Positions 15,493 to 31,526 of a DNA stretch of 48,113 nt are shown one piece after another; within the stretch, counting starts at the first letter, position 1, and every line of letters starts with the position of its first letter. A program made the translations under genes and the position numbers. The notes below the pieces were generated by a model that did not search any database, was not told the DNA's origin, and saw only the letters and a list, made by a program, of their open reading frames with translations. Source of the DNA: Melioribacter roseus (GTDB lineage: Bacteria; Bacteroidota; Ignavibacteria; Ignavibacteriales; Melioribacteraceae); contig DYJK01000014.1 in NCBI GenBank assembly GCA_020723165.1, positions 1 to 48,113 of the forward strand, written 5' to 3'.

Positions 15493-16062
15493 ATGAAAAA
15501 AACTGTTCTTGATTATGCTCTTAAGATTCGTCTTCCACTTACATTATTTGTTGTAGCTACAACATTCGTTTTAACATATTATATATCGCGGCCTGAAAGA
15601 GATGGCATAGGATATACACCCCAGCAGCCGATAAATTTTTCCCATAAACTTCATGCCGGTACAATGGGGATTGATTGCCAGTATTGCCATATCAATGTTA
15701 CAAAAGGACGCTACGCAACAATTCCTTCAGCAAATATCTGTATGAATTGCCATACGTTAGCTCGTAAAGATAGACCTGAAATTGTAAAGCTTACACAATA
15801 TTATGAAGAAGGAAAGCCGATACCTTGGAAGCGAGTTCATAAGGTACCCGATTATGCATACTTTAATCACAGTGTACATGTGAACAAAAACATTGACTGC
15901 ACTAGCTGCCATGGTGACGTTAAAGAAATGGAAGTTGTCGGACAAGTCCGCCAGTTCACTATGAAAGCTTGTCTCGATTGTCATAGACAGCCGCATGAAA
16001 ATCTTCCATATCTAAAACAAGTTAATATTGGACCAGAAAATTGCGCTGTTTGTCATCGCTAA
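15493..16062 (+). CDS. actA: Alternative complex III pentaheme cytochrome c subunit ActA
   Basis: 189 residues. A hydrophobic segment at about 13-31 is a signal/anchor. Five heme c motifs are present: CQYCH (62-66), CMNCH (83-87), CTSCH (136-140), CLDCH (160-164) and CAVCH (184-188), the expected number for ActA. Extra histidines in NFSHKLHAG and YFNHSVHV fit the sixth-ligand pattern of the cytochrome c7/c3-like fold. In alternative complex III it collects electrons from ActB on the periplasmic side and passes them towards the oxidase. First gene of the operon. It is shorter than some ActA proteins but complete in heme motifs. Confidence 0.93.
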   Translation: MKKTVLDYALKIRLPLTLFVVATTFVLTYYISRPERDGIGYTPQQPINFSHKLHAGTMGIDCQYCHINVTKGRYATIPSANICMNCHTLARKDRPEIVKLTQYYEEGKPIPWKRVHKVPDYAYFNHSVHVNKNIDCTSCHGDVKEMEVVGQVRQFTMKACLDCHRQPHENLPYLKQVNIGPENCAVCHR

Positions 16063-16263: not shown

Positions 16264-19200
16264 ATGAATAATTCCGATAAAATAAAAGATGATAATAAAA
16301 GTTATTGGAAGAGTCTAAAAGCGTACGATAACGACCCCGAAGTACTAAAGTTGAAACAAAATGAATTTGTTGACGGTGTTACAGATGAATTTAAATCATC
16401 ACAATTACCAGATATATCACGCAGAAAATTTTTAGCGTTGCTTTCGGCTTCAGCAGCATTAACCGCAACTGCATGTACCGATTACCGTGACAAAGGTGAG
16501 ATAGTCCCTTATAATAAACGTCCTGAAAATGTATCGCCGGGTACGGCAAATTTTTATGCTTCAACGTGTAATGGATGCTCGCAAGCATGTGGTATTATTG
16601 TTAAAACGAGGGAAGGCAGACCGATCAAAATTGATGGCAATACCGATCACCCGATTAACAAAGGGAAAATTTGTGCAAAGGGACAAGCAAGCATTTTAAA
16701 TCTTTATGACCCGGAAAGATTGAATAACCCTACTTATAATAAAAGAAAGATTGATTGGAGCGATGCCGATAGTAATATTATCGATGCTTTAAACAAATCC
16801 CAAACCGATGGTAAGCAAATAGCAATTGTAACCGGTGCAATAGTTTCTCCAACGATCAAAAAAGTTTTTGATACATTTACGGCAAAGTATAACAATACAA
16901 AAATTTATTCTTATGACTTGTTAAATGATGCAATACGACGCGATGCGTGGTTTGAATGTTATGGCAGTAACGACTATCCTTCGATTAAATGGAATGAACC
17001 GAATATTATACTTGCTCTCGATTCCGACTTTTTAGGGTCTGAAGGAAATTATATTGAGAATATGAATCTCTTTACACAAAAGAGAGAAACATTATCGAAA
17101 CTTGATTTTAATAGATTGTATGCCGCCGAAGGAAGAATGAGCGTCACCGGTTCATTAGCCGATTATAGATTAAGGATTCCTCCTGATCAGCAATATGATT
17201 TTGTAATGGCGCTTACAAATGAATTGTTGAAAAAAGGTTCGGCAATATCGATTAATTCGCAAGTCCAAGCAAAAGTTCAAAAATTCTCTTTAAATAAATT
17301 TGAAAGAACGGTTGGTAAAGAAAAACTAACACATCTTGTTGAAGATTTAAATGCAAATCGCGGCAAATCGATTATCCATGCCGGTGATACTTTGAGTAAG
17401 GATGTTCATATTGCCGTAAATCTGCTAAATGAAATTTTGGGGAACACACAGATTTACGATTACAAAAAAACATTCAAAACAGTTCTTCCCGGTTCGACTA
17501 AAGGTGATTTCAAACAATTAATTGCTTCGATGAACAATGATGGTGTTGGTGTTGTAATTCATTTTGATTCAAACCCGGTTTTCACATTAGCCGGAGATTT
17601 CGGGTATACATCTGCATTGAAGAAAGTAGAAACTATAGTTGCACTAACCGAAAGTGAGAATGAGACTTCATCAGTTGCGCATTACACGTTACCGATAAAT
17701 AACCAACTTGAAAATTGGGGTGATGCATATGTTAGAGGTGGTGTTTATAGTTTACAGCAGCCGGTTATCTCGCCGGTTTTTAACACAAGACAAAAGGAAG
17801 CTGTTCTATTAACATGGATTAATGGTAAGACAAATTCTTATTCTCATAATATCTATCATAATTTCTTGATGGATAATTTCAACACTGAAATTTATCCGCG
17901 TAAAAAACCTTTCTCTGATCAAAAAACTTTTTGGTTATCTGCTTTACACGATGGTGTTGTTACTCTTGATGAAAATATTCAGCCATCAAAAGAAATTAAT
18001 ACTTCTGCATTATTGAATACTAATGAAAGTTTAAGCAATGGTTTTGTTCTTCATCTAACAAACAGTTATTATTTAAGTGATGGTAAATTTGCTAATAACG
18101 GATGGCTTCAAGAGTTACCGCATCCCATAACGAAAGTTGCCTGGGATAATTATGCAGCAGTTTCACCAAATACAGCTAAAGAAATTAGCGTTGAGAACAA
18201 TGATTTGGTTGAAGTGAATATCAACGGAAGAAATTTGACACTACCGGCACTTGTGCAACCCGGCATGAGTGATAAAACGATTAACATAGAACTTGGTTAT
18301 GGAAGAAAAGTTTGCGGCGATGTAGGGAAAGATGTCGGTTCTAATTCAATTAAATTGATATCGAAAGATTCATCGATTTCACCATTCATCTATTCAAACG
18401 CTTCCATAAAAAAATCATCAGGTACACACAAACTTGTTACTACGCAAGAACACCATTCATTAGATGATACATTTGTAAAAGATTTCCATCGCATAAGGAA
18501 TATTATCCAGGAAGGTACTGTTAATAAGTATAAAAACGATTCGAACTTTTTACATCACGAAAAACATGAAGTATTCAGCATTACAAACGAACATGAATAC
18601 AACGGAATGAAATGGGCGATGGCCATAGATTTGAACAAATGTACAAATTGCAGTGTTTGTATCTCTTCATGTAATGTTGAAAATAACATCCCGGTTGTTG
18701 GTAAACCCCAGGTAGAGCGCGGTAGGGAAATGCAATGGATGAGGATCGACCGGTATTATTCTGGAACGCCGGATGAACCTATTGTAAGTAACCAGCCGAT
18801 GTTATGCCAGCATTGTGATAATGCCCCTTGCGAAAATGTCTGCCCGGTTAACGCTACAAATCATAGTCCCGATGGATTGAACCAAATGGTTTACAACCGC
18901 TGTGTTGGAACCAGGTACTGCTCGAATAACTGTCCTTATAAAGTAAGAAGATATAACTTTTTTGATTACCGCGATGAATTTGCCGATGCTTATTATGAAA
19001 ATGATTTAACAGCTTTAGTTAACAATCCCGAAGTGACCGTTCGATCCCGTGGAGTTATGGAAAAATGTACTTTCTGCGTACAAAGAATTATGGAAGCCAG
19101 ATCGAATGCAATACGCGACGGCAGAGAATTAAAGGGAAGTGATGTAGTTACTGCATGTCAGCAAGCTTGCCCTACAAATGCAATTGTGTTTGGCAATGCG

Positions 19201-19335
19201 AACGATCCGGAATCGCCGGTTGCAAAATTGCGAGATCTTAATCTTGCTTATCATGTATTAGAAGAATTAAATATTAAACCGAATGTTACATACATAGCAA
19301 AATTAAGAAACACCCATTCGGAGGAAATTGCGTGA
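16264..19335 (+). CDS. actB: Alternative complex III iron-sulfur subunit ActB (molybdopterin-like plus Fe-S domains)
   Basis: 1023 residues. A Tat signal, [15 protein letters not shown], lies at 52-66 behind a long leader. The N-terminal part resembles Mo-bis-MGD oxidoreductases, including C102, C105, C109 and C137 (CNGCSQAC...ICAKG); in characterised ACIII this domain carries no molybdenum. The C-terminal domain (about 785-985) is ferredoxin-like, with 15 cysteines in four groups: 793/796/799/803, 848/851/856/860, 880/886/890 and 935/938/965/969. That matches three [4Fe-4S] and one [3Fe-4S] cluster known for ActB. It moves electrons from the quinol site in ActC to hemes of ActA. Its stop overlaps actC (GTGA). 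Confidence 0.95.
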
Positions 19336-20699
19336 GTGTTGTTGATTATTCACAAGAATTATCTGTTGTAGAAGGCAAGCCGCCTTTAAGATCGCTGGAT
19401 GATCTAATTGCGAAACCGCTTGAAGTAAAACCTGATAGAAAGTTTTACATTGCACTTTCTGTTACACTATCGATGCTCGGACTTTTTGTGATCGGGTTGG
19501 CACTTACATTTTGGTATGGTATCGGAATGTGGGGCAACAATAACCCGGTCGGTTGGGCTTTCGATATTGTTAACTTTGTTTTTTGGGTTGGTATCGGTCA
19601 TGCCGGAACCCTAATCTCTGCTATTTTATTTTTGTTCAGACAAAAATGGAGAACCGGTATTGCAAGGTTTGCAGAAGGAATGACAATCTTTGCAGTGATG
19701 ACGGCTCTCTTGTTCCCGTTGATTCACGTAGGACGGCCATGGTTAGATGGATGGCTGCTTCCTTATCCAAATCAACATGGAGTTTGGACAAATTTTACAT
19801 CACCGCTCTTGTGGGATGTGTTTGCTGTTTCCACATACTTTGCCGTATCACTAATATTCTGGTATGTTGGATTAATACCGGATTTTGGTTCATTGCGTGA
19901 AAGAGCAACGGGCAAATTCAAAAAAATAATTTACTCTACATTCAGTTTGGGATGGAGATTTTCTAATCGTCATTGGCACCATTATGAAATGGTTTATTTA
20001 ATCCTTGCCGGTTTTGCTACACCGTTAGTTCTCTCCGTACATACAATAGTGAGTTTCGATTTTGCTGTTTCGATAATACCCGGATGGCACACAACGATAT
20101 TCCCCCCATACTTTGTTGCCGGTGCTGTCTTTTCGGGATTTGCAATGGTACAGAATGTGCTGATCGCAGTAAGAAAAATTTTCAATTATGAACATATAAT
20201 TACAGTTGATACGCTCGAAAAGATGAACAAGATTATGCTTGTTACCGGTTCGATGGTCGGTTATGCGTATGCAATGGAATTTTTTATTGCGTGGTACAGC
20301 GGAGTTCAAGCTGAAACTTTTACATTTTTTAATAGGGCATTAGGTCCGTATGCTTGGGCATACTGGATTATGGTTACATGCAATGTAATTTCTCCGCAGC
20401 TTTTTTGGGTGAAGAAGATCAGAAGGTCAGTACCGGTAATGTTTGTAATTGCAATCTTTGTTAATGTTGGTATGTGGTTCGAAAGATTTGTAATTGTTGT
20501 TACGTCATTATCAAGAGATTTTCTGCCATCAAGCTGGGCTTATTATACACCTACTTATGTTGATTTTATGATATTGATCGGCAGCTTTGGATTTTTCTTC
20601 ACATGGATTTTGTTGTTCACAAAAGCATTACCGGTAGTCTCAATGGCTGAAGTAAAAGCAGTTGTGGATGGTTCGCAGCCATCACATGAGGATCATTAA
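19332..20699 (+). CDS. actC: Alternative complex III NrfD-like membrane subunit ActC
   Basis: 455 residues, GTG start overlapping the actB stop by four bases. After a ~40-residue cytoplasmic head there are about ten membrane helices. [20 protein letters not shown] (with H90) is the conserved NrfD/PsrC-type segment near the quinol site; HVGRPW follows the next helix pair. ActC oxidises menaquinol and hands electrons to ActB. It is related to ActF in the same operon. Ends with EDH two bases before the next gene. Confidence 0.94.
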
Positions 20700-20701
20700 T
20701 A

Positions 20702-21841
20702 ATGAATGAGAAGATTCTATATAGTTATACCGGGGTATTTAATTCTCCCAATGCAATTATTAATGCGGCAGAAAAAGTATCCGAAAAAGGATATAAAAAA
20801 TATGACGTTCATACACCGTATCCGCTTCATGGTATGAACAAAGCGATGAAATTACCACCATCGAAACTTGGTTATGTTGCTTTGGTAATTGGTCTATCGG
20901 GAGCGTTATCGGCATTACTTTTAATGTTTTGGATGTCGGCTGTCGATTACCCGATTGTGATTGGCGGTAAACCTCTGTTTTCATTCCCGGCATACGTCCC
21001 GGTAATTTTCGAAGTAACTGTTCTGTCTGCTTCAATCGCTACAGTGCTAACCATGCTCTTTATATTTTTTAAACTTCCCAATAATGCACATCCGCTTCAT
21101 GGTACAGAATATATGAAGAATGTTGCTGCTGATAAATACGGAATTTCAATTCAAGCCGAAGATGAAAAGTTTGACGAAGTTGAAGTTAAAAAACTATTAG
21201 AAGAGTGTGGTGCTATCAATATTACGGCAATCTACTACGATGAAGAAGAAATTAATCACAAGCATAAAATTTTAGAACCAAAGTTCATCGGGTTTTTATT
21301 ATTCACCGCACTATTAACATCGGGTGTCTCCTATTTCACTTTAAATAAAGTATTGTATATGTCTCCATTTAATTGGATGATGGAACAGAATAAGTTAAAT
21401 CCACAATCCACATCAACAATTTTTGCTGATGGCTTTGGAATGAGAAATCCGGTTGAAGGAACTATACCAAGAGGATATTTACCTTATCCATACAAGGGTC
21501 AGCCCGAAGCTGCCGGGGTAAATCTTATCAATCCATTACCGGTAACAAAACAAATTTTAGATATCGGTCAAAAGAAATTTGATATTTATTGCAGTCCTTG
21601 TCACGGTTTTAATGGAGAGGGTGATAGTAGATTACGCGGACAATTTCCAAACCCACCAAGCTTGCACTCGGAAAAAGTCCGTACATGGTCCGATGGAAGA
21701 ATTTTCCATGTTATAACTGATGGGCAGAATATAATGCCTTCATATTCTTCCCAGCTGAATACAGACGAAAAGTGGGCAGTCGTACATTACATACGTACTT
21801 TGCAAAGAGCTCTCAATGCTAAGGAGTCTGATTTACAATGA
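20702..21841 (+). CDS. actDE: Fused ActD-ActE: DUF3341 membrane subunit plus monoheme cytochrome c
   Basis: 379 residues combining two ACIII subunits usually encoded separately. Residues 1-190 are ActD-like (DUF3341): a soluble start, two membrane helices (about 56-78 and 99-124), the HPLHG motif repeated at 41-44 and 130-133, and an acidic segment (EECGAINI). Residues 195-379 are ActE-like: one membrane helix (195-213), the RNPVEGTIPRG segment (248-258), heme motif CSPCH (297-301) and a probable axial M345 in GQNIMPSY. The frame is continuous, with no stop or start signal between halves, so this looks like a true fusion. The next gene overlaps by four bases (ATGA) with an AAGGAG ribosome site. 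Confidence 0.88.
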   Translation: MNEKILYSYTGVFNSPNAIINAAEKVSEKGYKKYDVHTPYPLHGMNKAMKLPPSKLGYVALVIGLSGALSALLLMFWMSAVDYPIVIGGKPLFSFPAYVPVIFEVTVLSASIATVLTMLFIFFKLPNNAHPLHGTEYMKNVAADKYGISIQAEDEKFDEVEVKKLLEECGAINITAIYYDEEEINHKHKILEPKFIGFLLFTALLTSGVSYFTLNKVLYMSPFNWMMEQNKLNPQSTSTIFADGFGMRNPVEGTIPRGYLPYPYKGQPEAAGVNLINPLPVTKQILDIGQKKFDIYCSPCHGFNGEGDSRLRGQFPNPPSLHSEKVRTWSDGRIFHVITDGQNIMPSYSSQLNTDEKWAVVHYIRTLQRALNAKESDLQ

Positions 21842-23025
21842 GTACAACTCAAAATTTTGAATATCAGAAAAAACAAATTCCAAAAAAGATTCAAACAATC
21901 GGGTTAGCATTATTTTTAATTGGATTGATTACTGTTGGTATCGGTTATATAACTGATACAACGAGAGTTGCCTTTAATAATATTATAATATTTTCATTCT
22001 TAACAAGCATCGGTCTTGGCTCTTTGTTCCTTGTAGCAATAGAGTATTTAGGCGGAGCTGTTTGGAGTACCCCATTCAGAAGAGTTCCTGAATTTTTATC
22101 TGCAACACTTTTACTACTGCCATTTATAGTGCTGCCTTTATTGTTTTCAATGGGGAATATTTTTCATTGGCTGCATCCCGAAGTAATGAATGCAGATAAG
22201 ATATTAAAAAGTAAAGCGCCGTATTTGGATATTACATTTTTCATAATACGCGTAGCAGCATTCATTGTTATCTGGATTTTGTTCTATCTATTAATTACAA
22301 GAAATTCTAAGAAACAAGATATCGTAAATGATCAATCGCTGACGAAGAAAAACATAAAACTTTCCGCAGTATTCATCCCATTTTTTGCGCTAACAATTTC
22401 ATTTACAGCTATTGATTGGTTGATGAGTCTTGAACCGCATTGGTTCTCAACAATATATGGCGTCTATTATTTTTCAGGATCGGTATTAGCCGCACTTGCT
22501 GCATCAACAATAATTATTGTTTTACTTAATGAGAACGGTTACTTAGTAAAAGGATTAAAACCAGACCACTATTACAGCTTGGGCGCATTACTGTTTGCGT
22601 TTACTAATTTCTGGGCATACATCGCTTTCAGTCAATACCTATTGATTTGGTACGCAAATCTACCGGAAGAAACATTTTGGTTTTTACAAAGATGGGATGG
22701 AAACTGGATAATAATTTCTATTGGATTAATCTTTATACGATTTGTGATACCATACTTTGGATTACTTTCACAACCATCCAAGATGAATCCCAAAAGATTA
22801 TTAATTATGTCATCAGTCATTTTATTTGCACACTGGTACGATTTGTACTGGCTGGCAATGCCAAATTATAGCAAGGATGGTTTTATTCTTGGATGGCAAG
22901 AGTTAGGATTTATTTTATTTGCAGTCGGTTTGATAATGTTGATTTTTAACTTCATGGCAAAGAAAAATAATTTAGTGCCGATTGGTGATCCAAAACTTAA
23001 ACGTGGAATAGATTTCAGGTTATAA
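21838..23025 (+). CDS. actF: Alternative complex III membrane subunit ActF
   Basis: 395 residues with about ten membrane helices, beginning with a short charged cytoplasmic head. Segments such as FLVAIEYLGGAVWSTPFRRVPE, AIDWLMSLEPHWFSTIYGVYYF and LIWYANLPEETFWFLQRW are characteristic of ActF. Homologous to ActC, but in structures of the complex it is thought to lack the Fe-S partner and may serve in proton movement; that role is literature-based and not visible here. The start ATG lies in the actDE stop region. Confidence 0.93.
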   Translation: MSTTQNFEYQKKQIPKKIQTIGLALFLIGLITVGIGYITDTTRVAFNNIIIFSFLTSIGLGSLFLVAIEYLGGAVWSTPFRRVPEFLSATLLLLPFIVLPLLFSMGNIFHWLHPEVMNADKILKSKAPYLDITFFIIRVAAFIVIWILFYLLITRNSKKQDIVNDQSLTKKNIKLSAVFIPFFALTISFTAIDWLMSLEPHWFSTIYGVYYFSGSVLAALAASTIIIVLLNENGYLVKGLKPDHYYSLGALLFAFTNFWAYIAFSQYLLIWYANLPEETFWFLQRWDGNWIIISIGLIFIRFVIPYFGLLSQPSKMNPKRLLIMSSVILFAHWYDLYWLAMPNYSKDGFILGWQELGFILFAVGLIMLIFNFMAKKNNLVPIGDPKLKRGIDFRL

Positions 23026-23027
23026 AA

Positions 23028-23972
23028 ATGGAATTGAACCAAAAGAAAAAAATTGAGGAAGAAATTAATTTTAAGGAACTTCTAAAATCTCCAATTCGTT
23101 TATTCGGTTGGGTATTTGTTTACTTCTTTTTAATTCTCCTGGTATTAGGAATATTCTTCGGTCATAAATTAATCCCTATTTCTTTTAATATACAATCAGT
23201 TGGAATTATTGATAGTACGACTATTAAAAAAGAAATTCCGGAATCAAAAGGCGGTATCATACCGGCAGTAGATTTAACATCTATTAAAACTCCCGGCTCT
23301 GAGATGATTGCGAAAGGGAAAGAATTGTACGATGCAAACTGTCAATCATGTCACGGTGCAAATGGTATGGGCGATGGACCGGCTGGAATTGCATTGAACC
23401 CTAAACCACGAAATTTTCATACAGCTGATGGCTGGACTAACGGTAGAACCATTGATGCGATGTATAAGACTTTACAAGAAGGTATTCTTACAAGAGGAAT
23501 GGCAGCTTATGAATACTTGCCGCCTCAAGATCGTTTAGATATTATCAATTATATAAGAACATTTACCGAATTTCCTCCAATTACAGACGAACAGATAAAT
23601 AGTTTGGATAATACTTATAATTTGTCGGTTGGGATTAATAAACCGAACACTATCCCAATTCAAAAGGCAAAAATAAAATTAGAAGAAGATAGTTATGATT
23701 TACAAACAGTAGTTATTAACCTGAGAACAAAGATTATTCAAGATAAAGAGAATACTGCAGCTAAATTGTTAATTACCAATTCTTTGGATTTGAACAAAGT
23801 TCTGCTTTCTTTTATCAATTTACCCGTTAAATCTTTCGATGATTATGCAGCCGGTTTAACAAATGCTCCTTTAACGTTAGGTTATAGACCTACAATTTTA
23901 CAGCTATCATCTAGTGAAATAAAAGCTGTATATGGTTATTTGAATACAATATCAGCTAAATATAGATCATGA
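23028..23972 (+). CDS. Membrane-anchored monoheme cytochrome c with C-terminal extension
   Basis: 314 residues. One membrane helix (about 25-45) anchors a periplasmic cytochrome c domain: CQSCH at 105-109, then GPAGIALNPKPRNFH, and methionine candidates in GILTRGMAAYEYL. After the cytochrome domain (ending near 190) a ~125-residue tail has no heme motif and no family I recognise. It occupies the place where some ACIII operons carry ActE, but ActE is already fused to ActD, so this is probably the link carrying electrons from ACIII to the oxidase, whose subunit II has no heme domain. That role is inference. Confidence 0.75.
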   Translation: MELNQKKKIEEEINFKELLKSPIRLFGWVFVYFFLILLVLGIFFGHKLIPISFNIQSVGIIDSTTIKKEIPESKGGIIPAVDLTSIKTPGSEMIAKGKELYDANCQSCHGANGMGDGPAGIALNPKPRNFHTADGWTNGRTIDAMYKTLQEGILTRGMAAYEYLPPQDRLDIINYIRTFTEFPPITDEQINSLDNTYNLSVGINKPNTIPIQKAKIKLEEDSYDLQTVVINLRTKIIQDKENTAAKLLITNSLDLNKVLLSFINLPVKSFDDYAAGLTNAPLTLGYRPTILQLSSSEIKAVYGYLNTISAKYRS

Positions 23973-24772
23973 TACAAAAGAAAGTAAGATTCATATTTTA
24001 TTTATTCGTAATAAGTTATGTCTGGCACTTCAGCTATATCTCCGCACAGAGTACGATAAAAGTGGGTATTGATGAAAAGCTCGGCAATAAATTACCGATG
24101 GATCTGAAGTTTACTACAAGTGATTCGAATTCAGTTACATTAAAAGAACTGATAGATAAGCCCGTGCTCCTTGCTTTTGTTTATTATGAATGCCCCGGTA
24201 TATGCAGCCCGATGTTGAATGAATTGTCATGGACAATTGACAAAATTCAGTTAGAGCCAGGAGAAGATTTCAAGATTATTACATTGAGTTTTGATAACCG
24301 CGAGACACCGGGTATAGCTGCAAAATGGAAAAAGAATTATTTCCAAACTATTAAAAGACAGATGGACCAATCCGATTGGATATTTCTAACCGGTGATAGT
24401 GCAAACATTAAAAAATTAACCGATGCTGCCGGGTTCTATTACAAGAAAAGTAATGACGATCAATTCATTCACGCCGGTACAATTGTTACAATTTCTCCAG
24501 AAGGGAAAATTTCCCGTTATTTATTCGGTACTTCTTTCAACCCATTCGATGTTAAGATGGCATTGATTGATGCTAAAGCCGGCAAAACAAATCCGACTAT
24601 TACGAGGGTGCTGGAATTTTGTTTTAGCTATGATCCGGAAGGAAGACAATATACACTAAATGTTACAAGAATCATCGGTTCAATTATGCTCTTAGGTGTT
24701 GGAATATTTCTCGCTGTGTTAATTATCAAGAAAAAGAAAAATAAGAATGAGGGAGTAGAAGTAAATGAGTAA
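23969..24772 (+). CDS. SCO1/SenC-type copper chaperone for cytochrome oxidase
   Basis: 267 residues. Signal peptide 1-27; thioredoxin-like domain with the copper motif CPGIC (C75, C79) and H168 in FIHAGTIV, the three expected ligands. A single membrane helix near the C-terminus (about 232-255), ending in a lysine-rich tail, is an extra anchor not present in typical SCO1 proteins. It delivers copper to the CuA site of oxidase subunit II, encoded four genes downstream. Overlaps the preceding gene by four bases (ATGA) and the next by eight. Confidence 0.9.
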   Translation: MIQKKVRFIFYLFVISYVWHFSYISAQSTIKVGIDEKLGNKLPMDLKFTTSDSNSVTLKELIDKPVLLAFVYYECPGICSPMLNELSWTIDKIQLEPGEDFKIITLSFDNRETPGIAAKWKKNYFQTIKRQMDQSDWIFLTGDSANIKKLTDAAGFYYKKSNDDQFIHAGTIVTISPEGKISRYLFGTSFNPFDVKMALIDAKAGKTNPTITRVLEFCFSYDPEGRQYTLNVTRIIGSIMLLGVGIFLAVLIIKKKKNKNEGVEVNE

Positions 24773-26402
24773 CGGTGCGGTTACCATAAACGAAAATAAT
24801 TTCTATCAGCAAAGTACAAATAAATATAGCGGAATACTTTCCTGGTTGTTAACTACCGATCACAAACGGATCGGTTTAATGTATGGAATGGGTATCATCG
24901 TATTCTTTTTAGTTGGCGTGATTATCGGTGTTCTAATGAGACTCGAACTTATTGCACCGGGCAAAACTCTGATGGATGCTCAAACATATAATTCATTATT
25001 CACCTTGCATGGTGTTATAATGATTTTCTTGTTCATCATTCCAGGATTGCCGGCTATTTTCGGAAATTTTTTCCTACCCATTCAAATCGGTGCAAGGGAT
25101 GTTGCGTTTCCAAGATTGAATTTATTATCGTTCTATTTATATGTAATTGGTGCTCTTCTTGCATTACTTGCTGTTGTTATACCGGGCGGTGCCATTGATA
25201 CCGGCTGGACATTTTATATCCCGTACAGTGTAAGGAGTAATACAAATATTTCGTTGCCGCTTCTTGCAGCTTTTATTCTTGGGTTCTCGTCGATTCTTAC
25301 TGGTTTAAATTTTATTACTACCACACATCGTTTGCGCGCACCCGGCATGTCGTTTTTCAAGATGCCTTTGTTTGTTTGGGCCACTTATGCAACGGCGTGG
25401 GTTCAAATAATCGCTACACCGGTTATTGGTATTACGATTGTTCTTGTAATACTTGAAAGATTATTCGGTGTTGGAATTTTTGATCCGGCTCTTGGAGGCG
25501 ATCCAATTTTATTCCAGCATTTGTTCTGGATCTATTCTCACCCGGCTGTTTATATAATGATTTTACCGGCTATGGGTGTCGTATCGGAAATCATACCGAC
25601 ATTTTCAAGACGTACAATTTTTGGATACAAAGCAATTGCAATGTCTTCATTAGCAATCGCATTTGTGGGCTATTTGGTTTGGGCTCATCACATGTTTACG
25701 AGTGGAATGAGTGATACATCAAGATGGATTTTTTCTTTACTTACATTCATAGTTGCTTTGCCAAGTGGTGTTAAGATATTCAACTGGGTTGCTACTATGT
25801 ACAAAGGTTCTATCGATCCCAAACCTCCGTTTCTCTGGGTGATGGCTTTTATATTTTTGTTCTCAATAGGAGGTTTAACCGGTTTAGTGTTAGGTTCACT
25901 AGCAACGGATATTCATGTTCACGATACGTATTTTGTTGTAGCGCATTTTCATTTTGTTATGTTCGGCGGAACGGGCACAATTTTCTTTGCCGCATTGCAC
26001 TACTGGTTCCCGAAAATATTCGGGAAAATGTATAGCGATAAATTAGCAAGAATTGGTGTTGCCGGATTCTTTGTCGGATTTTTAATGTTGTACTTCCCAA
26101 AATTTATTATGGGTTATATGGGAATGCCGAGAAGATATTACGATTATCTCCCCCAGTTTGCATCGCTGCAATTGGTATCAACAATCGGATCTTGGATATT
26201 ATCTACAACTATATTTTTTATCGTGGGATATTTGATTTATGCGTTCTTTAAAGGACCTAAAGCTAAAACAAATCCGTGGGGAGGTGTTACATTGGAATGG
26301 CATATTCCATCACCGCCGCCAATGGAAAATTTTGCATCAATTCCAACTATAACACATGAACCGTACGATTTTAGCCAACTTAAGGAGATGAAAAATGAGT
26401 AA
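24765..26402 (+). CDS. ctaD: Cytochrome c oxidase subunit I, A2-type heme-copper oxidase
   Basis: 545 residues, twelve or more membrane helices. H82 and H396 are heme a ligands, H394 the heme a3 ligand, and H259, H308 and H309 the CuB ligands; Y263 is the cross-linked tyrosine. The segment is YSHPAVY (257-263) instead of GHPEVY: the D-channel glutamate is replaced by the Tyr-Ser pair that defines A2-type oxidases, as in Rhodothermus marinus caa3. It reduces O2 to water and pumps protons. First of the structural genes in the unusual order I-III-IV-II. AAGGAG precedes the next ATG. Confidence 0.97.
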   Translation: MSNGAVTINENNFYQQSTNKYSGILSWLLTTDHKRIGLMYGMGIIVFFLVGVIIGVLMRLELIAPGKTLMDAQTYNSLFTLHGVIMIFLFIIPGLPAIFGNFFLPIQIGARDVAFPRLNLLSFYLYVIGALLALLAVVIPGGAIDTGWTFYIPYSVRSNTNISLPLLAAFILGFSSILTGLNFITTTHRLRAPGMSFFKMPLFVWATYATAWVQIIATPVIGITIVLVILERLFGVGIFDPALGGDPILFQHLFWIYSHPAVYIMILPAMGVVSEIIPTFSRRTIFGYKAIAMSSLAIAFVGYLVWAHHMFTSGMSDTSRWIFSLLTFIVALPSGVKIFNWVATMYKGSIDPKPPFLWVMAFIFLFSIGGLTGLVLGSLATDIHVHDTYFVVAHFHFVMFGGTGTIFFAALHYWFPKIFGKMYSDKLARIGVAGFFVGFLMLYFPKFIMGYMGMPRRYYDYLPQFASLQLVSTIGSWILSTTIFFIVGYLIYAFFKGPKAKTNPWGGVTLEWHIPSPPPMENFASIPTITHEPYDFSQLKEMKNE

Positions 26403-27021
26403 TCACAACGAAGCTGCTGCTATTAATCATGTTCATCGCGATGATGTTGGTGCAAAGATGGGAATGTGGTTATTTCTCTTTACGGAGGTTCTTCTTTTTG
26501 GCGGATTGTTTTTAATTTATGCTGTATATCGTTATCAATATCCTGATCAATTTCATTTAGCCGGTATGGAGTTGAATACCGGTATCGGTACTTTGAATAC
26601 AATTATATTATTAACGAGCAGTTTGACCGTAGCACTTTCAATTGCAGCAATGCAAAAGAATAATAAATTTTTATCGATGATGATGCTCTCGCTTACGTTG
26701 TTCTTTGCATTAATGTTCATGGTTAATAAATATTTCGAGTGGTCGGCAAAATTTTCACATGGTATTTACCCGGGCTCTCCTGAATTATTAAATCTTCCTA
26801 ATGGACAGATTTTATTTTTCGGACTTTATTATGTAATGACTGGTTTGCATGGTCTTCACGTTTTAGTTGGAGTTGTTCTGCTTTCTATCATGCTTTACTT
26901 AATTGCTAAAGATAAGATTACACCTGACCATTATACAAAACTCGAAAATTCCGGTTTGTACTGGCACTTAGTTGATTTGATCTGGATCTTCCTTTTCCCG
27001 TTATTCTATTTAATTCAATGA
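26395..27021 (+). CDS. ctaE: Cytochrome c oxidase subunit III
   Basis: 208 residues with five membrane helices, the short form of subunit III common in bacterial caa3-type oxidases. Family features are KMGMWLFLFTEVLLFGGLF, TGLHGLHVLVG and the ending YWHLVDLIWIFLFPLFYL. It stabilises subunit I. Overlaps ctaD by eight bases; an AAGGAG ribosome site sits before its ATG inside the end of ctaD. Confidence 0.95.
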   Translation: MSNHNEAAAINHVHRDDVGAKMGMWLFLFTEVLLFGGLFLIYAVYRYQYPDQFHLAGMELNTGIGTLNTIILLTSSLTVALSIAAMQKNNKFLSMMMLSLTLFFALMFMVNKYFEWSAKFSHGIYPGSPELLNLPNGQILFFGLYYVMTGLHGLHVLVGVVLLSIMLYLIAKDKITPDHYTKLENSGLYWHLVDLIWIFLFPLFYLIQ

Positions 27022-27028
27022 GGAATAC

Positions 27029-27322
27029 ATGTACGAAGAACACGCAAAACATACGGCTCATCCCGGATACAGCACATACATTATAGTATGGCTTGCATTA
27101 TTGGCTTTTACTTCGATCACGGTTACAATTGCCGGTGTAAGTCTCGGCCGGTATACACTTTTAGTTGCGCTGTTAATTGCAGCTATTAAATCAGCTTTGG
27201 TAATTAATATTTTTATGCACATTAAGTTTGATGAAAAGATTTTCAAAGTATTCCTTGCGTTAAGCGGTCTTACCTTATTGGTAATTTTTATCCTAACATT
27301 TTTTGATTTTATCTATCGTTGA
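27029..27322 (+). CDS. Cytochrome c oxidase subunit IV (prokaryotic type)
   Basis: 97 residues with three membrane helices. The start HPGYSTYIIVWLALLAFTSITV and the segment KSALVINIFMHIKFDEKIFKV are typical of the prokaryotic COX IV family. It is an accessory membrane subunit with no redox centre. It lies seven bases after subunit III and nine before subunit II. Confidence 0.9.
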   Translation: MYEEHAKHTAHPGYSTYIIVWLALLAFTSITVTIAGVSLGRYTLLVALLIAAIKSALVINIFMHIKFDEKIFKVFLALSGLTLLVIFILTFFDFIYR

Positions 27323-27331
27323 GGTTTGTAA

Positions 27332-27952
27332 ATGTCGCCAGCTCCAACACAGCATGTTGAAACTGTAGATTTTGTAATGTTATATATTGTAGGCATTTCC
27401 GTAATCCTTTTGATCGGGATTACAATTGCAATGGTCTACTTTGTATTTAAGTACAACAGAAAGAAAGGGCATCAGCCGGTTGATATTCATGGTAATATTT
27501 GGCTGGAAATTATATGGATAGCTATTCCTACCATTTTAGTTCTTTCTATGTTTTACTATGGTTATACCGGGTTTAGAGAATACCGCGATGTACCGGAAAA
27601 TGCTTACATAATTAAAGCAACTGCCCGTATGTGGGCATGGGAATTTAATTATGATAACGGGAAAAAATTAGACACTTTGTATGTGCCGCAAGGTGTTCCT
27701 ATCAAAGTTGAATTAACTTCTCAAGATGTAAATCATTCATTATACATCCCGGCATTTAGAATTAAAGAAGATGTGATTGTTGGCAGAACAAATTATCTTG
27801 CGTTCACCGCCAGGCAAACCGGCTCTTATGATATTGCTTGCGCCGAATATTGCGGATTGAATCACTCGATGATGTATACTAAAGTTAAAGTTCTTCCTGA
27901 AAATCAATTTTATACATGGCTTAATGCCAAAACAGATACAACCCAAAATTGA
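27332..27952 (+). CDS. ctaC: Cytochrome c oxidase subunit II (CuA), without cytochrome c domain
   Basis: 206 residues: two N-terminal membrane helices (about 14-38 and 56-78), then the cupredoxin domain. CuA ligands are complete: H135, C170, E172, C174, H178 and M181 in CAEYCGLNHSMM. The aromatic patch ARMWAWEFNYDNG is present. Unlike caa3 enzymes it stops right after the CuA domain, so no heme c is fused; electrons must come from a separate cytochrome such as the one at 23028-23972. It has no obvious cleavable signal. The position after subunits I, III and IV differs from the common order with II first. Confidence 0.95.
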   Translation: MSPAPTQHVETVDFVMLYIVGISVILLIGITIAMVYFVFKYNRKKGHQPVDIHGNIWLEIIWIAIPTILVLSMFYYGYTGFREYRDVPENAYIIKATARMWAWEFNYDNGKKLDTLYVPQGVPIKVELTSQDVNHSLYIPAFRIKEDVIVGRTNYLAFTARQTGSYDIACAEYCGLNHSMMYTKVKVLPENQFYTWLNAKTDTTQN

Positions 27953-28843
27953 GTGTTGATATTGTTGTTAATTAGAAAATATATCGATCTATTACTTGAA
28001 CTTTGCAAAGTGAGAATTACCTTCTTTGTAGCAGTTTCTACTTTTGTCGGATTTATTCTTCATTCGGGGAATATTTCCTTGCAAATAATTTTACCATCGT
28101 TAGGTGTATTTATATTAGCGAGTGGTTCTTCAGCTTTGAATGAATACCAGGAAAGAGAAGCCGATAAATTGATGCGTAGGACAAAGAGCAGACCGATACC
28201 TTCCGGTAGGATCAATGAAAAATCAGCTTTGTTAATATCGTTAGTATTATTGATAACCGGTTTTGCAGTAATATTTTTTTCATCTAATCTGAATGCCTTG
28301 CTGCTTGGTATATTGGCAGTTATATGGTACAATGTTATTTACACACCGCTGAAAAAAAAATATGTTATGGCAGTTGTACCGGGTTCTTTGATTGGTGCTA
28401 TACCTCCAGTTATTGGCTGGGCGGCTTCGGGCGGTAATCCATTTGATTTTGAAATACTCACCGTTGCACTTTTCTTTTTCATCTGGCAGATACCGCATTT
28501 TTGGTTACTTCTTCTAATTTACGGGGAAGATTATGAATCAGCCGGATTTCCAACATTAACACGAAAATTTTCAAGACAACAATTAGGCAGAATTACTTTT
28601 ATTTGGATTTCTGCATTAGTAACAAGTTGTCTGCTTATTCCGGTTTTCAATATTTCTTCGAATATTTATTCACTAATTGCGATGATACTATCCGGTGTGT
28701 GGCTGCTTTGGGAAACGAAATTTATTCTTAATGATATTATAGAGAAATTTATTTTTAGAAAAGCTTTTGTAAGTATAAATCTTTATGTACTTGCAATTAT
28801 TGTAATTCTATCAATTGATAAACTGCTACTTCAAGAAATTTAA
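27953..28843 (+). CDS. ctaB: Heme O synthase (protoheme IX farnesyltransferase)
   Basis: 296 residues from GTG at 27953, directly after the ctaC stop. UbiA-family prenyltransferase with about eight to nine helices. The motif NEYQEREADKLMRRTKSRPIPSG holds the first acidic/Arg site, and YGEDYESAGFPTL the second. It farnesylates heme B to heme O. No ctaA (heme A synthase) or ctaG is present in the window, so whether the oxidase uses heme A or O cannot be settled here. Confidence 0.93.
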   Translation: MLILLLIRKYIDLLLELCKVRITFFVAVSTFVGFILHSGNISLQIILPSLGVFILASGSSALNEYQEREADKLMRRTKSRPIPSGRINEKSALLISLVLLITGFAVIFFSSNLNALLLGILAVIWYNVIYTPLKKKYVMAVVPGSLIGAIPPVIGWAASGGNPFDFEILTVALFFFIWQIPHFWLLLLIYGEDYESAGFPTLTRKFSRQQLGRITFIWISALVTSCLLIPVFNISSNIYSLIAMILSGVWLLWETKFILNDIIEKFIFRKAFVSINLYVLAIIVILSIDKLLLQEI

Positions 28844-28854
28844 CGGTAGGGAAA

Positions 28855-30201
28855 ATGGATTTTTTAGATAACCTCGTTTTACCGCAGTCGGCACATCATA
28901 TGTTGCTGTTAAAGTATCTGCTTGTGCTTACTTATATTTTACTAATTCCTTATCTAAGTATTTTATTCGGTTCATTAGTTTTATCGGTTTACTACGAGAA
29001 GAAGGCGGCAAAAACTTCGGATAAAAAATATTACCAGTTTGCCAAAGAATTGATAGATCAAATTACATTTAATAAGGGCGGAGCGTTTGCGCTTGGTGTA
29101 GTGCCTATGATAAGCGCTGCATTCTGTTATGCGCAATTACTGCACCTAACTAACCTTATAGTTCCGGAATTTATTTTGGTTGCCGTTCTGATATTTTTGA
29201 TAGCCTTGATTTTAATCTACACATACAAATACACTTTTCACCTTAAAGATATTTTCTCTTTGGTATCGGGCCAATCTAAAACTCAAGACGAATTAAATGA
29301 AGAAGTTGAATCTTATGCAACAAAAACTTCACGCTTACATAAGCATTCGGGGAGTTACGGTTTAACTTTATTGATTATTGCTGTCTACTTTTTTATCGGT
29401 GCTGTACAACTTGCCGGTGATAAAAACGCATGGGAAACAAGTAACGATTTCTTCGGGATAGTTATTTCTATAAAGTCTTTATTCTATTTCATACAATTTA
29501 TAATAGCATCCCTTGCGATTACTGCTGCATTAATACTTTATAAGTATTTTCGTCCGAATACGGATGTAAAAAATAAAAGTGAAGATTACTTAAATTTTGT
29601 TAAAAACTTTTCATTAAAACTTGGCATCATATCAACGATAATCTTACCGTTGTTTGTAGTAATCAATATTATTATCAAGCCCCAGGATTCATTTTCGTAC
29701 GATGTTTTTGGTTATGCTCTTGTTGCATTAATCTGTTTACTGGTAATTGCTGTTCTCTACTATGTTATGATTAAGGAATCGAATGTAAGATTCAGTTCTA
29801 TTGTAATATATCTTTTAGTTCTTGTTTTTGCATTTATAATAATTAAAGATCAATATGCTTTCGATACTACTACAAAGAAACAGTTTGTTATGTTAGCCGC
29901 TAATTATGAAGAATATCAGCAGAAAGTTAAAGAAGAATTCGGACTTGTTGTAGAGACAATAAATGGTGCAGATATCTATAACGGCAAATGTATCGCTTGT
30001 CATCAATTTGATAGAAGACTTGTCGGACCCCCGTACAATGAAACATTACCGAAGTATAAAGGGAATAAAGATGCTTTGGTTAAATTCATACTTAACCCGG
30101 TAAAGATAAATCCTGAATATCCGGCAATGCCAAATCAAGGATTGAAACCGAAAGAAGCAGAAGCCGTGGCTGATTATTTACTTTCGACATATAAGAAATA
30201 A
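28855..30201 (+). CDS. Polytopic membrane protein with C-terminal cytochrome c; N-terminal part CydA-like but degenerate
   Basis: 448 residues. About nine membrane helices fill residues 15-350, followed by a cytochrome c domain with CIACH (379-383), LVGPPY and axial M425 in PAMPNQGL. By eye, the first 90 residues follow the layout of cytochrome bd subunit CydA (helix 1, charged loop ending DKKYYQFAKE, then GAFALGVVPMIS, compared with ALGVATG in CydA), but the first-helix heme b ligand His is replaced (TYILL). LHKHSGSYG (161-169) could correspond to the second heme b site. So it may be a bd-derived module that lost oxygen chemistry. It is the last gene of the operon, 11 bases after ctaB. The family is not one I can name with certainty. 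Confidence 0.6.
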   Translation: MDFLDNLVLPQSAHHMLLLKYLLVLTYILLIPYLSILFGSLVLSVYYEKKAAKTSDKKYYQFAKELIDQITFNKGGAFALGVVPMISAAFCYAQLLHLTNLIVPEFILVAVLIFLIALILIYTYKYTFHLKDIFSLVSGQSKTQDELNEEVESYATKTSRLHKHSGSYGLTLLIIAVYFFIGAVQLAGDKNAWETSNDFFGIVISIKSLFYFIQFIIASLAITAALILYKYFRPNTDVKNKSEDYLNFVKNFSLKLGIISTIILPLFVVINIIIKPQDSFSYDVFGYALVALICLLVIAVLYYVMIKESNVRFSSIVIYLLVLVFAFIIIKDQYAFDTTTKKQFVMLAANYEEYQQKVKEEFGLVVETINGADIYNGKCIACHQFDRRLVGPPYNETLPKYKGNKDALVKFILNPVKINPEYPAMPNQGLKPKEAEAVADYLLSTYKK

Positions 30202-30272: not shown

Positions 30273-30396
30273 TCACAATTAAAATATTGTGAAATTAGAA
30301 TCCTTTCAGAACTCAGTTTTGTCCTTTGCAATTACTATTTATCATGTTAAATTCACAATTGTAATTAAAAATTTTTAGGTAAATTTTATATTGTGA
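30273..30396. promoter_or_regulatory. Repeated TCACAAT / ATTGTGA half-sites before and over the DUF4143 gene start
   Basis: Two inverted pairs of the same heptamer: TCACAAT (30273-30279) with ATTGTGA (30286-30292), spacer six, and TCACAAT (30353-30359) with ATTGTGA (30390-30396), spacer 30. The last half-site covers the GTG start codon at 30393. This arrangement suggests a dimeric repressor acting on this gene; no regulator is encoded next to it. Confidence 0.4.
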
Positions 30397-31526
30397 TACC
30401 AAGATTACTTGAAAATAGTATTAAATCTCAGCTTTTTAAGGGAAAGACACTAATCATTTATGGCGCTCGTCAGGTGGGTAAAACAACCCTTGTGCAAAAT
30501 CTGCTGAAAGAATTTGGAAATAAAGGACGTTACCTTAACTGTGAGATTTTTTCTGTTGAACAAAATCTAAAAGAAGCTGAACCGGAAAAACTAAAGGCAT
30601 TCCTCGGTGATTACAAAATAATCGTTTTAGATGAAGTACAAAACATCCCTAATCCCGGGAAGATATTAAAGGTGATTACTGATACCTTAAAAGAAATACA
30701 AATAGTTGCGACCGGATCTTCTAGTTTTGAACTTGCTAATAAAATAGCTGAGCCGATGACGGGGCGTGTGATACGTCATGTACTCTATCCAATTTCGGTT
30801 TTAGAAATAAAAGATGGGGAAGATTGGCTGAAGGTTGATGCCAAATTAGAAAAACTTCTCCGCTTCGGTTCTTATCCCGAAGTATATACTTCCAATGATG
30901 AAGATGCTGTTGAAAAATTGCATGAGCTTTCTTCAAGTTATCTATTTAAGGATTTGCTAAAGTTTGAGGGAATAAAAAAATCGAGCTTGCTGAAAAATCT
31001 TGTTATCTCCCTGGCTCTTCAACTTGGCAATGAAGTTACATATAATGAATTAGCGAACAAACTTGGTGTAAGCAGTATTACTGTTCAGAAATATATAGAT
31101 CTGCTTGAACAGAGTTTTGTTTTATTCAAACTAAACTCGTTTTCAAGGAATATTCGTAAGGAAATATCAAAATCATTCAAGATTTATTTCTATGATAATG
31201 GAATACGCAATGCACTTATTAATAATTTTAATCCTATTTCTTTGCGAAATGATGTTGGCGCGCTATGGGAGAATTTTTGCATTTCGGAAAGAATAAAATC
31301 TATTGCATACGCAAACAAAAAAGTTAACAACTACTTTTGGCGCACTTACGACCAAAAGGAGGTTGATTATGTAGAAGAATTTTCAGGCATAATTACCGGA
31401 TATGAAATAAAGTACTCCGAGAAACAAAAACTTAAAATTCCAAAGTCATTTTCCGAATCCTATAATGCTCAAGTTTTGAAGGTAGATAAAAGTAACTACT
31501 GGAAATTTTTTGATTTGCAGAATTAA
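30393..31526 (+). CDS. AAA_14 / DUF4143 family ATPase
   Basis: 377 residues from a GTG. Walker A is GARQVGKT (24-31); Walker B is KIIVLDEVQN with D80/E81; TGSSSFEL is the sensor segment. A winged-helix region (YNELANKLGVSSITVQKYIDLLE) follows, then the DUF4143 C-terminal domain with a nuclease-like KEVDYVEE...YEIKYS pattern (D and E, then E-x-K). The molecular role of these orphan ATPases is unknown; they are patchily distributed and often behave as accessory genes. It stands alone, with a terminator before it and 69 bases before prmC. The predicted repeated operator over its start suggests tight control. Confidence 0.85.
   Translation: MIPRLLENSIKSQLFKGKTLIIYGARQVGKTTLVQNLLKEFGNKGRYLNCEIFSVEQNLKEAEPEKLKAFLGDYKIIVLDEVQNIPNPGKILKVITDTLKEIQIVATGSSSFELANKIAEPMTGRVIRHVLYPISVLEIKDGEDWLKVDAKLEKLLRFGSYPEVYTSNDEDAVEKLHELSSSYLFKDLLKFEGIKKSSLLKNLVISLALQLGNEVTYNELANKLGVSSITVQKYIDLLEQSFVLFKLNSFSRNIRKEISKSFKIYFYDNGIRNALINNFNPISLRNDVGALWENFCISERIKSIAYANKKVNNYFWRTYDQKEVDYVEEFSGIITGYEIKYSEKQKLKIPKSFSESYNAQVLKVDKSNYWKFFDLQN

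Follow-up and report, generated by a model that had tools for sequence, protein, structure and literature searches.

A cytochrome bd-type membrane module fused to cytochrome c, encoded beside ACIII and cytochrome oxidase in Ignavibacteria, as a probable tethered electron bridge

What is the role of a membrane protein with an attached cytochrome c whose gene closes an operon for both ACIII, which oxidizes quinol, and a cytochrome oxidase (Cox)? This question is raised by a gene at 28855..30201 on the forward strand of a 48,113-nucleotide stretch of DNA (termed here the window), the product of which has the working name BDC (for bd-type membrane module plus cytochrome c). The gene order in the window is ActA-B-C-DE-F-ActE-SCO-CoxI-III-IV-II-CtaB-[BDC]; the BDC open reading frame starts with ATG, begins 11 bases after CtaB and encodes 448 residues. 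An initial annotation of this DNA had given the same coordinates for the gene and the same residues (379-383) for a CIACH motif, and had placed the gene at the end of a respiratory operon; its position as the last gene after CtaB, in an ACIII-Cox operon, bears this out. That annotation had also read a CydA-like layout into the N-terminal helices, had suggested either a quinol-to-cytochrome c enzyme or a structural subunit working with ACIII and Cox, and had named profile-profile comparison, structure prediction with overlay on cytochrome bd, and a survey of ACIII operons as checks. The genes of the operon, all on the forward strand (+), are:

15493..16062, +, ActA, a pentaheme cytochrome with five CxxCH motifs
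16264..19335, +, ActB
19332..20699, +, ActC (NrfD family)
20702..21841, +, ActD fused to a cytochrome c (ActD match at 5.2e-59, and a cytochrome c match)
21838..23025, +, ActF (named from gene order and length; no Pfam match)
23028..23972, +, ActE-like monoheme cytochrome c
23969..24772, +, SCO1/SenC copper chaperone
24765..26402, +, CoxI
26395..27021, +, CoxIII
27029..27322, +, CoxIV
27332..27952, +, CoxII, with the CuA motif CAEYCGLNHSMM and no CxxCH
27953..28843, +, CtaB, heme prenyltransferase (UbiA family)
28855..30201, +, BDC, 448 aa, the final gene of the ACIII-Cox operon

Within BDC the following features are distinguished:

28855..29904, +, membrane module, residues 1-350, with eight predicted helices and a predicted CydA fold; no family in Pfam scores above cut-off
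28891..29016, +, first helix, residues 13-54 (helix prediction and alignment), with Tyr27 in the column that holds His in the partner family described below
28897..28899, +, His15, at the periplasmic end of helix 1 (alignment of relatives)
29143..29145, +, His97, in the periplasmic loop after helix 2 (alignment of relatives)
29338..29346, +, H162-K-H164, not conserved in the alignment
29962..30189, +, monoheme class I cytochrome c domain, residues 370-445 (Pfam, PDB sequence search)
29989..30003, +, CIACH heme attachment motif, residues 379-383 (C379, C382 and H383 kept in 45/46 rows)
30127..30129, +, Met425, the presumed sixth heme ligand by analogy with class I cytochromes (45/46 rows)

BDC is single-copy in the window's 3.8-Mb genome. 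It is flanked by CtaB and an AAA ATPase gene, with no adjoining CydA-cytochrome c gene, and the only gene of that genome matching the Pfam CydA family (PF01654) sits on a different contig. The ATPase gene (AAA_14/DUF4143, window positions 30393-31526), which lies between the operon end and prmC, has no match in any of 80 compared loci and looks like a local insertion. Named relatives carry the labels Melioribacter, Stygiobacter, Ignavibacteria or Bacteroidetes.

The C-terminal part of the protein is an ordinary monoheme cytochrome c, as had been noted from the sequence at the outset. Pfam assigns residues 370-445 to cytochrome c (E 4e-7), which is the only Pfam family above cut-off on BDC; NCBIfam gives nothing above its cut-offs, and a PDB sequence search yields matches confined to this same part. 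Both marks of a class I monoheme cytochrome c, CxxCH and a downstream Met, are present: the CxxCH and Met425 are kept in 45 of 46 aligned rows (44 distinct sequences, with the fragment L022 omitted), the remaining row being cut by a contig end. A Met-Pro pattern, searched for across the 74 cytochrome-bearing BDC rows, is absent in 4.

The membrane module has no such ready match. Hydropathy indicates eight membrane segments in BDC, and among 46 relatives eight are found in 32, seven in 10, six in two and nine in two. Positive charges fall mostly in the odd-numbered loops, so that both termini should, on this topology, face the periplasm, as the cytochrome c requires. An AlphaFold2 model (17 sequences; mean pLDDT 83, pTM 0.74) retrieves cytochrome bd subunits as the first 13 Foldseek rows, albeit with weak E-values (best 1.2e-3). 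When residues 10-355 of this model are aligned structurally using VIA-align, the CydA chains of 10 PDB entries rank highest (Z 22.7-25.1; rmsd 3.3-3.8 over 295-312 residues), followed by ActC/ActF of ACIII at about 18, polysulfide reductase PsrC at 15.3 and others at 9.0 or less. Modelling L045, a divergent homologue with 30% identity, gives CydA Z of 22.7-24.9 and then about 18, with a best Foldseek E of 4.7e-4; as the two models share most alignment rows, they are not independent. As modelled, then, the membrane part of BDC has the CydA fold, in agreement with the layout first proposed, and a bd fold appears in the overlay of both models.

Sequence profiles place the module within the same superfamily, by way of an intermediate. 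PF01654 lists no match to BDC up to E 10, in a search whose HMMER filters drop most weak ones. Weak matches in scans of relatives and of the class led, however, to a two-gene system in some Ignavibacteria, which consists of a CydA-like protein fused to cytochrome c (CydA-c) and an adjoining partner membrane subunit without any Pfam family. Using hhalign families of 79 rows for the BDC module and 27 rows each (26 distinct) for the partner and for CydA-c, the BDC module matches the partner family over its full length (E 2.4e-26 over 342 columns) and the membrane part of CydA-c at 3.6e-10; the partner in turn is linked to CydA-c (1.2e-16) and, more weakly, to canonical CydA (1.8e-5), and CydA-c matches canonical CydA at 3e-13. 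Between the BDC module and canonical CydA (23 rows) there is no direct match (E 0.15), nor is there one with CydB, and the controls ActC, ActF, CoxI, CoxIII and CtaB give none against the BDC module. Judged by these profiles, BDC joins canonical CydA only via the partner and CydA-c families. In agreement with this, a sequence search starting from a partner subunit returns BDC at E 3.2e-6 and BDC relatives at up to 1.6e-11 (in G071). The CydA-c proteins themselves vary in their likeness to CydA: PF01654 matches both of those in L071 (9e-21 and 1e-16), does not match that of L072 at E 1 or better nor that of L256 at 0.001, and yet the L072 protein matches fellow CydA-c family members at 4.5e-79.

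The profile-profile comparison thus yields a strong link to bd-type proteins, and neither the folds nor the profiles produced a clear match to another membrane family. The initial assignment to CydA holds insofar as the module is bd-derived; its nearest relative is the partner subunit of CydA-c and not CydA itself. The partner family may represent the second subunit in bd enzymes of the OR-C or OR-N type. In a sample of 198 genomes from a different class within the phylum (probably Bacteroidia), five hold a partner with a C-terminal cytochrome c of its own: in four (G272, G563, G570 and G639) this cytochrome-bearing partner retains the first-helix His and adjoins a CydA-c gene, and the fifth (G542) is a partial copy. 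These share with BDC the plan of a membrane module followed by cytochrome c. The cytochrome c domain of the G272 partner scores 66 bits, compared with at most 27 bits for CydA-c cytochromes; this score is not relied upon, since a related full-length profile gives free cytochromes of relatives about 19-53 bits. Bd-type pairs in which both subunits end in cytochrome c occur in that other class at L256:11094-13947 and at L261, L262 and L263.

Does this module still bind heme b? The hemes of cytochrome bd sit near the periplasm and are held by a His in helix 1, a second His, a Met and a Glu. The first-helix His is invariant in the partner family (27/27 rows, 26 of them distinct), whereas the corresponding BDC column holds His in 3 of 79 rows and otherwise mostly Leu, Phe or Tyr (Tyr27 in the window), so that the loss of this residue noted earlier extends to nearly all relatives. 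The three exceptions (L216, L218, L219) form one clade, in which the His could be either a relic or a regain. A His occurs at the column of the window's Val300 in 31 of 79 rows, never together with the helix-1 His. Across the 79 rows, the start Met aside, no column of the membrane part is at least 75% His, Met or Glu. The invariant CydA His of column 192 corresponds to no His in BDC, the helix-1, Q-loop and C-terminal ligand columns lying outside that CydA alignment. The LHKHSGSY segment, which the initial annotation had considered a possible heme site, does not bear up: of 46 rows, 11 have His at position 162 and one, the window's own, at position 164, and the predicted topology puts the segment at the cytoplasmic end of helix 4. 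On conservation, H162 and H164 are ruled out as heme ligands. More widespread are two His residues at the periplasmic face, His15 (59/79 relatives; 58/74 of those bearing the cytochrome) and His97 (39/79; 38/74), both of which are missing from all six copies in loci without CoxI, including the two (L175 and L186) that keep the cytochrome c; it is possible, given this small number of loci, that they contact Cox or the cytochrome. By its conservation pattern, BDC appears to be a subunit of bd origin in which no heme b site is conserved, and the protein itself presumably lacks heme b.

Two readings of the module can be weighed at this point. One is that BDC is an active, bd-derived quinol:cytochrome c reductase whose module binds heme b, oxidizes quinol and feeds its own cytochrome c. 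The bd fold in both models, the frequency of periplasmic-side His15 and His97, and the sporadic His of helix 1 (3/79) and of the residue-300 column (31/79) speak for such an enzyme; nevertheless, quinol oxidation is disfavored by the lack of conserved ligands in the membrane part and by the loss of the partner family's first-helix His in 76 of 79 rows, the adjoining ACIII already oxidizes quinol, and four of six loci without CoxI drop the cytochrome c while the module stays. This reading is very improbable, and of the two functions suggested initially the catalytic one is not supported, leaving a structural subunit with ACIII and Cox as the better option. The other reading takes the membrane part to be an NrfD/ActC-type module instead of a bd-type one, as the fold Z of about 18 to ActC/ActF chains might suggest; CydA ranks 4-7 Z units higher, however, and the profiles show no similarity to ActC or ActF but link the module to bd-type families. 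On that ranking and the absent profile similarity an NrfD identity was rejected, and we regard it as extremely unlikely.

The genomic setting ties the gene to ACIII and Cox. In a survey of 80 loci (each at most 18.4 kb), ActB or ActE is visible in 69, BDC being a conserved gene of ACIII operons, and in nearly all readable loci BDC comes last, after CtaB, in the same order as in the window. In L205, L212 and L217 it lies between CoxII and CtaB; the other exceptions are six loci without CoxI, the lone copies L187, L191 and L221, and loci cut by contig ends. On a metagenome contig labelled 'bacterium isolate S144_13' (L045:9995-11296), BDC directly precedes ActA-ActB-ActC. Among relatives, a match to BDC was found in 53 of 58 genomes (the window's own included), and the five without it also lack a CoxI match; for one of these five (G026), in which the contig carrying ActA and ActB breaks off within ActC, the absence is provisional. 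In a sample of 149 genomes of the class, BDC is present in 66 of 66 with this clade of CoxI (counted at 750 bits or more) and in one of the 83 others, where it is a fragment (G083); from this count 13 of 80 matching genomes (G063, G091, G096, G101, G109, G116, G141, G144, G153, G159, G168, G182 and G183) were dropped, the match being to the cytochrome c part only or to a partner-type gene. The initial proposal that the gene is tied to ACIII and Cox is thus upheld by the survey of ACIII operons. Across a phylum-wide sample, 60 of 395 genomes matched, of which G168 and, outside the class, G272 did so through partner-type genes; the remaining 58 carry BDC or a fragment of it, and all fall within the class Ignavibacteria.

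Two further observations concern BDC's neighbors. The CoxII of the window has CuA and no cytochrome c domain; an own CxxCH occurs in 3 of 69 CoxII genes of the loci, and likewise in L047, L257 and L258, so that some Cox do have a bridging domain of their own. Matches to ActB with in-frame stops (TGA, TAA or TAG) occur in G135, G074, G064, G171, G154 and G129 (family f10), and may reflect assembly error, split genes or decay.

Six genomes offer a natural comparison: they keep ACIII and the module, and their loci lack CoxI, CoxII, SCO and CtaB. Elsewhere in these genomes, two of which are 88-90% complete, matches to CoxI are all weak and lie in frames of 701-715 aa, with none in G005; these CoxI-like frames are taken for CcoN of cbb3 oxidases. 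The cytochrome c is lost from four of the six modules (L189, L190, L192 and L193) and kept in two (L175 and L186). Among uncut BDC copies, it is present in 66 of 66 with CoxI in the locus versus 2 of 6 without, a count that leaves out L160, whose frame is truncated by the end of its contig, and seven loci with a lone gene or no readable operon (L162, L176, L183, L187, L191, L215 and L221). A Fisher test gives p 1.5e-5, a value that ignores relatedness; the tree indicates three separate losses of the cytochrome c and three of CoxI, and a sign test on three independent pairs gives p 0.25-1, significance being unreachable at that number. The pattern is most simply explained if the module is a companion of ACIII and the cytochrome serves the acceptor; since L175 and L186 keep the cytochrome without CoxI, it can have another acceptor. 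In five of the CoxI-less loci (L175, L186, L189, L190 and L192) CoxIII and CoxIV remain between ActE and the module, and may themselves be membrane subunits associated with ACIII.

A few copies lie in other settings. G048 has an ACIII-Cox operon without BDC, and its only copy (L236:13937-15202) follows nosZ, nosL, nosD and ABC genes; G035 has a second copy (L235:3791-5062), two genes from nrfHA and next to DoxX, with nar nearby. Such positions suggest that these paralogues donate electrons to N-oxide reductases, and hence that the cytochrome can probably serve other acceptors.

These settings bear on two further explanations. BDC could be a general tethered donor, in which the module is a mere anchor, with no fixed place at ACIII, and the cytochrome feeds aa3, cbb3, NosZ and Nrf alike. 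The paralogues behind the nosZ-L-D-ABC cluster and near nrfHA and nar genes are what such a donor would predict, as are the two CoxI-less copies with a retained cytochrome c, the weak CoxI matches of their genomes (712 and 715 aa) being taken for CcoN. It is unlikely, however, in view of the near 1:1 co-occurrence with one CoxI clade and of the cytochrome-less modules that stay in ACIII operons, which an anchor alone does not explain. Alternatively, BDC might be a Cox assembly factor that helps to build the CuA site or CoxII, with its cytochrome c as a redox helper in maturation; this would fit the placement of the gene after CtaB (and SCO), the loss of the cytochrome c only where the locus has also lost CoxII, SCO and CtaB, and the copy behind nos genes, inasmuch as NosZ also has a CuA site. 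But the module stays with ACIII in six loci that lack CoxI, CoxII, SCO and CtaB, and the cytochrome c shows the ordinary CxxCH/Met pattern of an electron carrier, making an assembly role quite unlikely.

The most likely interpretation is that BDC is a membrane-tethered cytochrome bridging ACIII to CuA, with the bd-type module as its anchor and dock. The predicted fold, the kinship, the lack of conserved heme b ligands, the intact heme c site, the place in the operon and the co-occurrence come from the computations; the docking on ACIII and the transfer of electrons to CuA are inferred and, in our judgment, probable. On this view BDC descends from one half of a cytochrome-c-type bd enzyme, probably a partner subunit that already bore its own C-terminal cytochrome c and was paired with CydA-c; it would then have lost the heme-binding His residues, separated from CydA and come to lie in the ACIII-Cox operon, presumably in that order. 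Most likely, the eight-helix module would anchor the protein and dock it beside ACIII, where the tethered periplasmic cytochrome c could take electrons from the c hemes of ACIII (ActA, ActE and the ActD-fused cytochrome) and hand them to the CuA of CoxII along a path that would replace a free soluble cytochrome. A counterpoint to this bridging role is that the operon already encodes the ActE and ActD-fused cytochromes. A more far-reaching version--that a subunit of a bd oxidase has become an obligate, heme-b-free docking subunit of ACIII; that it forms a third kind of ACIII-oxidase bridge, after those on CoxII and on ActA; and that it persists in an oxidase-less ACIII complex in lineages without CoxI and CoxII, mostly with orphan CoxIII and CoxIV--is advanced tentatively, as a real possibility to which we give somewhat less than even credence.

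The handover of electrons from ACIII to the oxidase varies by lineage, and in one bacterial class the task seems to have fallen to a former oxidase subunit. If so, the bd fold can persist without conserved heme b sites. Moreover, docking is open to test in the lineages that keep the module without CoxI and CoxII, most of which also have CoxIII and CoxIV.

Comparison with known systems begins with M. roseus itself, for which MROS_0033 is listed as a class I soluble cytochrome c551/c552 and drawn as a carrier from ACIII to the oxidases in two papers (PMC5492636, PMC3534657); MROS_0033, CoxI, CoxII, ActC and ActDE were, according to one of them, reliably identified only in aerobically grown cells (PMC5492636). 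MROS_0033 is taken to be the BDC homologue at 34865-36202 of G009, which follows CtaB in the place of the last gene of Mros0039-0033, and for which eight hydrophobic segments are predicted; thus a protein published as soluble is predicted here to be membrane-integral. This calls the soluble-carrier picture into question, and a tethered donor would alter both the kinetics and the supercomplex model for Ignavibacteria. Searches of open-licence PMC papers turned up no description of the BDC gene as bd-derived.

Within the bd superfamily, BDC is nearest to the partner subunit, to which it is related by a full-length profile match, but the partner has the first-helix His (27/27) and an adjoining CydA-c gene and BDC has neither. 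With CydA (PF01654) it shares the predicted fold (Z 22.7-25.1), and it differs in having no Pfam or direct profile match, no conserved ligands, eight helices and an added cytochrome c. The closest precedent found for a bd-type protein encoded beside ACIII is the OR-N5 CydAA' bd-like enzyme of Nitrospirales, directly downstream of ACIII in the account given there (PMC12342949); compared by description, OR-N5 is a presumed oxygen reductase, whereas the BDC locus has an aa3-type Cox and BDC has no conserved ligands. In its proposed role, BDC resembles two tethered cytochromes c proposed to act between ACIII and Cox: the cytochrome domain of CoxII (CoxIIc), which is described as the bridge to caa3 in R. 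marinus, and an extra domain of ActA, described as the bridge to the oxidase in F. johnsoniae (both PMC5928083), where ActE is reported to be dispensable for transfer to aa3 (PMC8552683). The window's CoxII, unlike that of the caa3 partner of R. marinus ACIII as presented there (PMC5928083), has no cytochrome c domain. Bridging cytochromes are themselves known; what would be new here is a probable tethered bridging cytochrome on a bd-superfamily subunit without oxidase features, in that the cytochrome is carried on CoxII in R. marinus and on ActA in F. johnsoniae, and in BDC on a bd-type membrane module.
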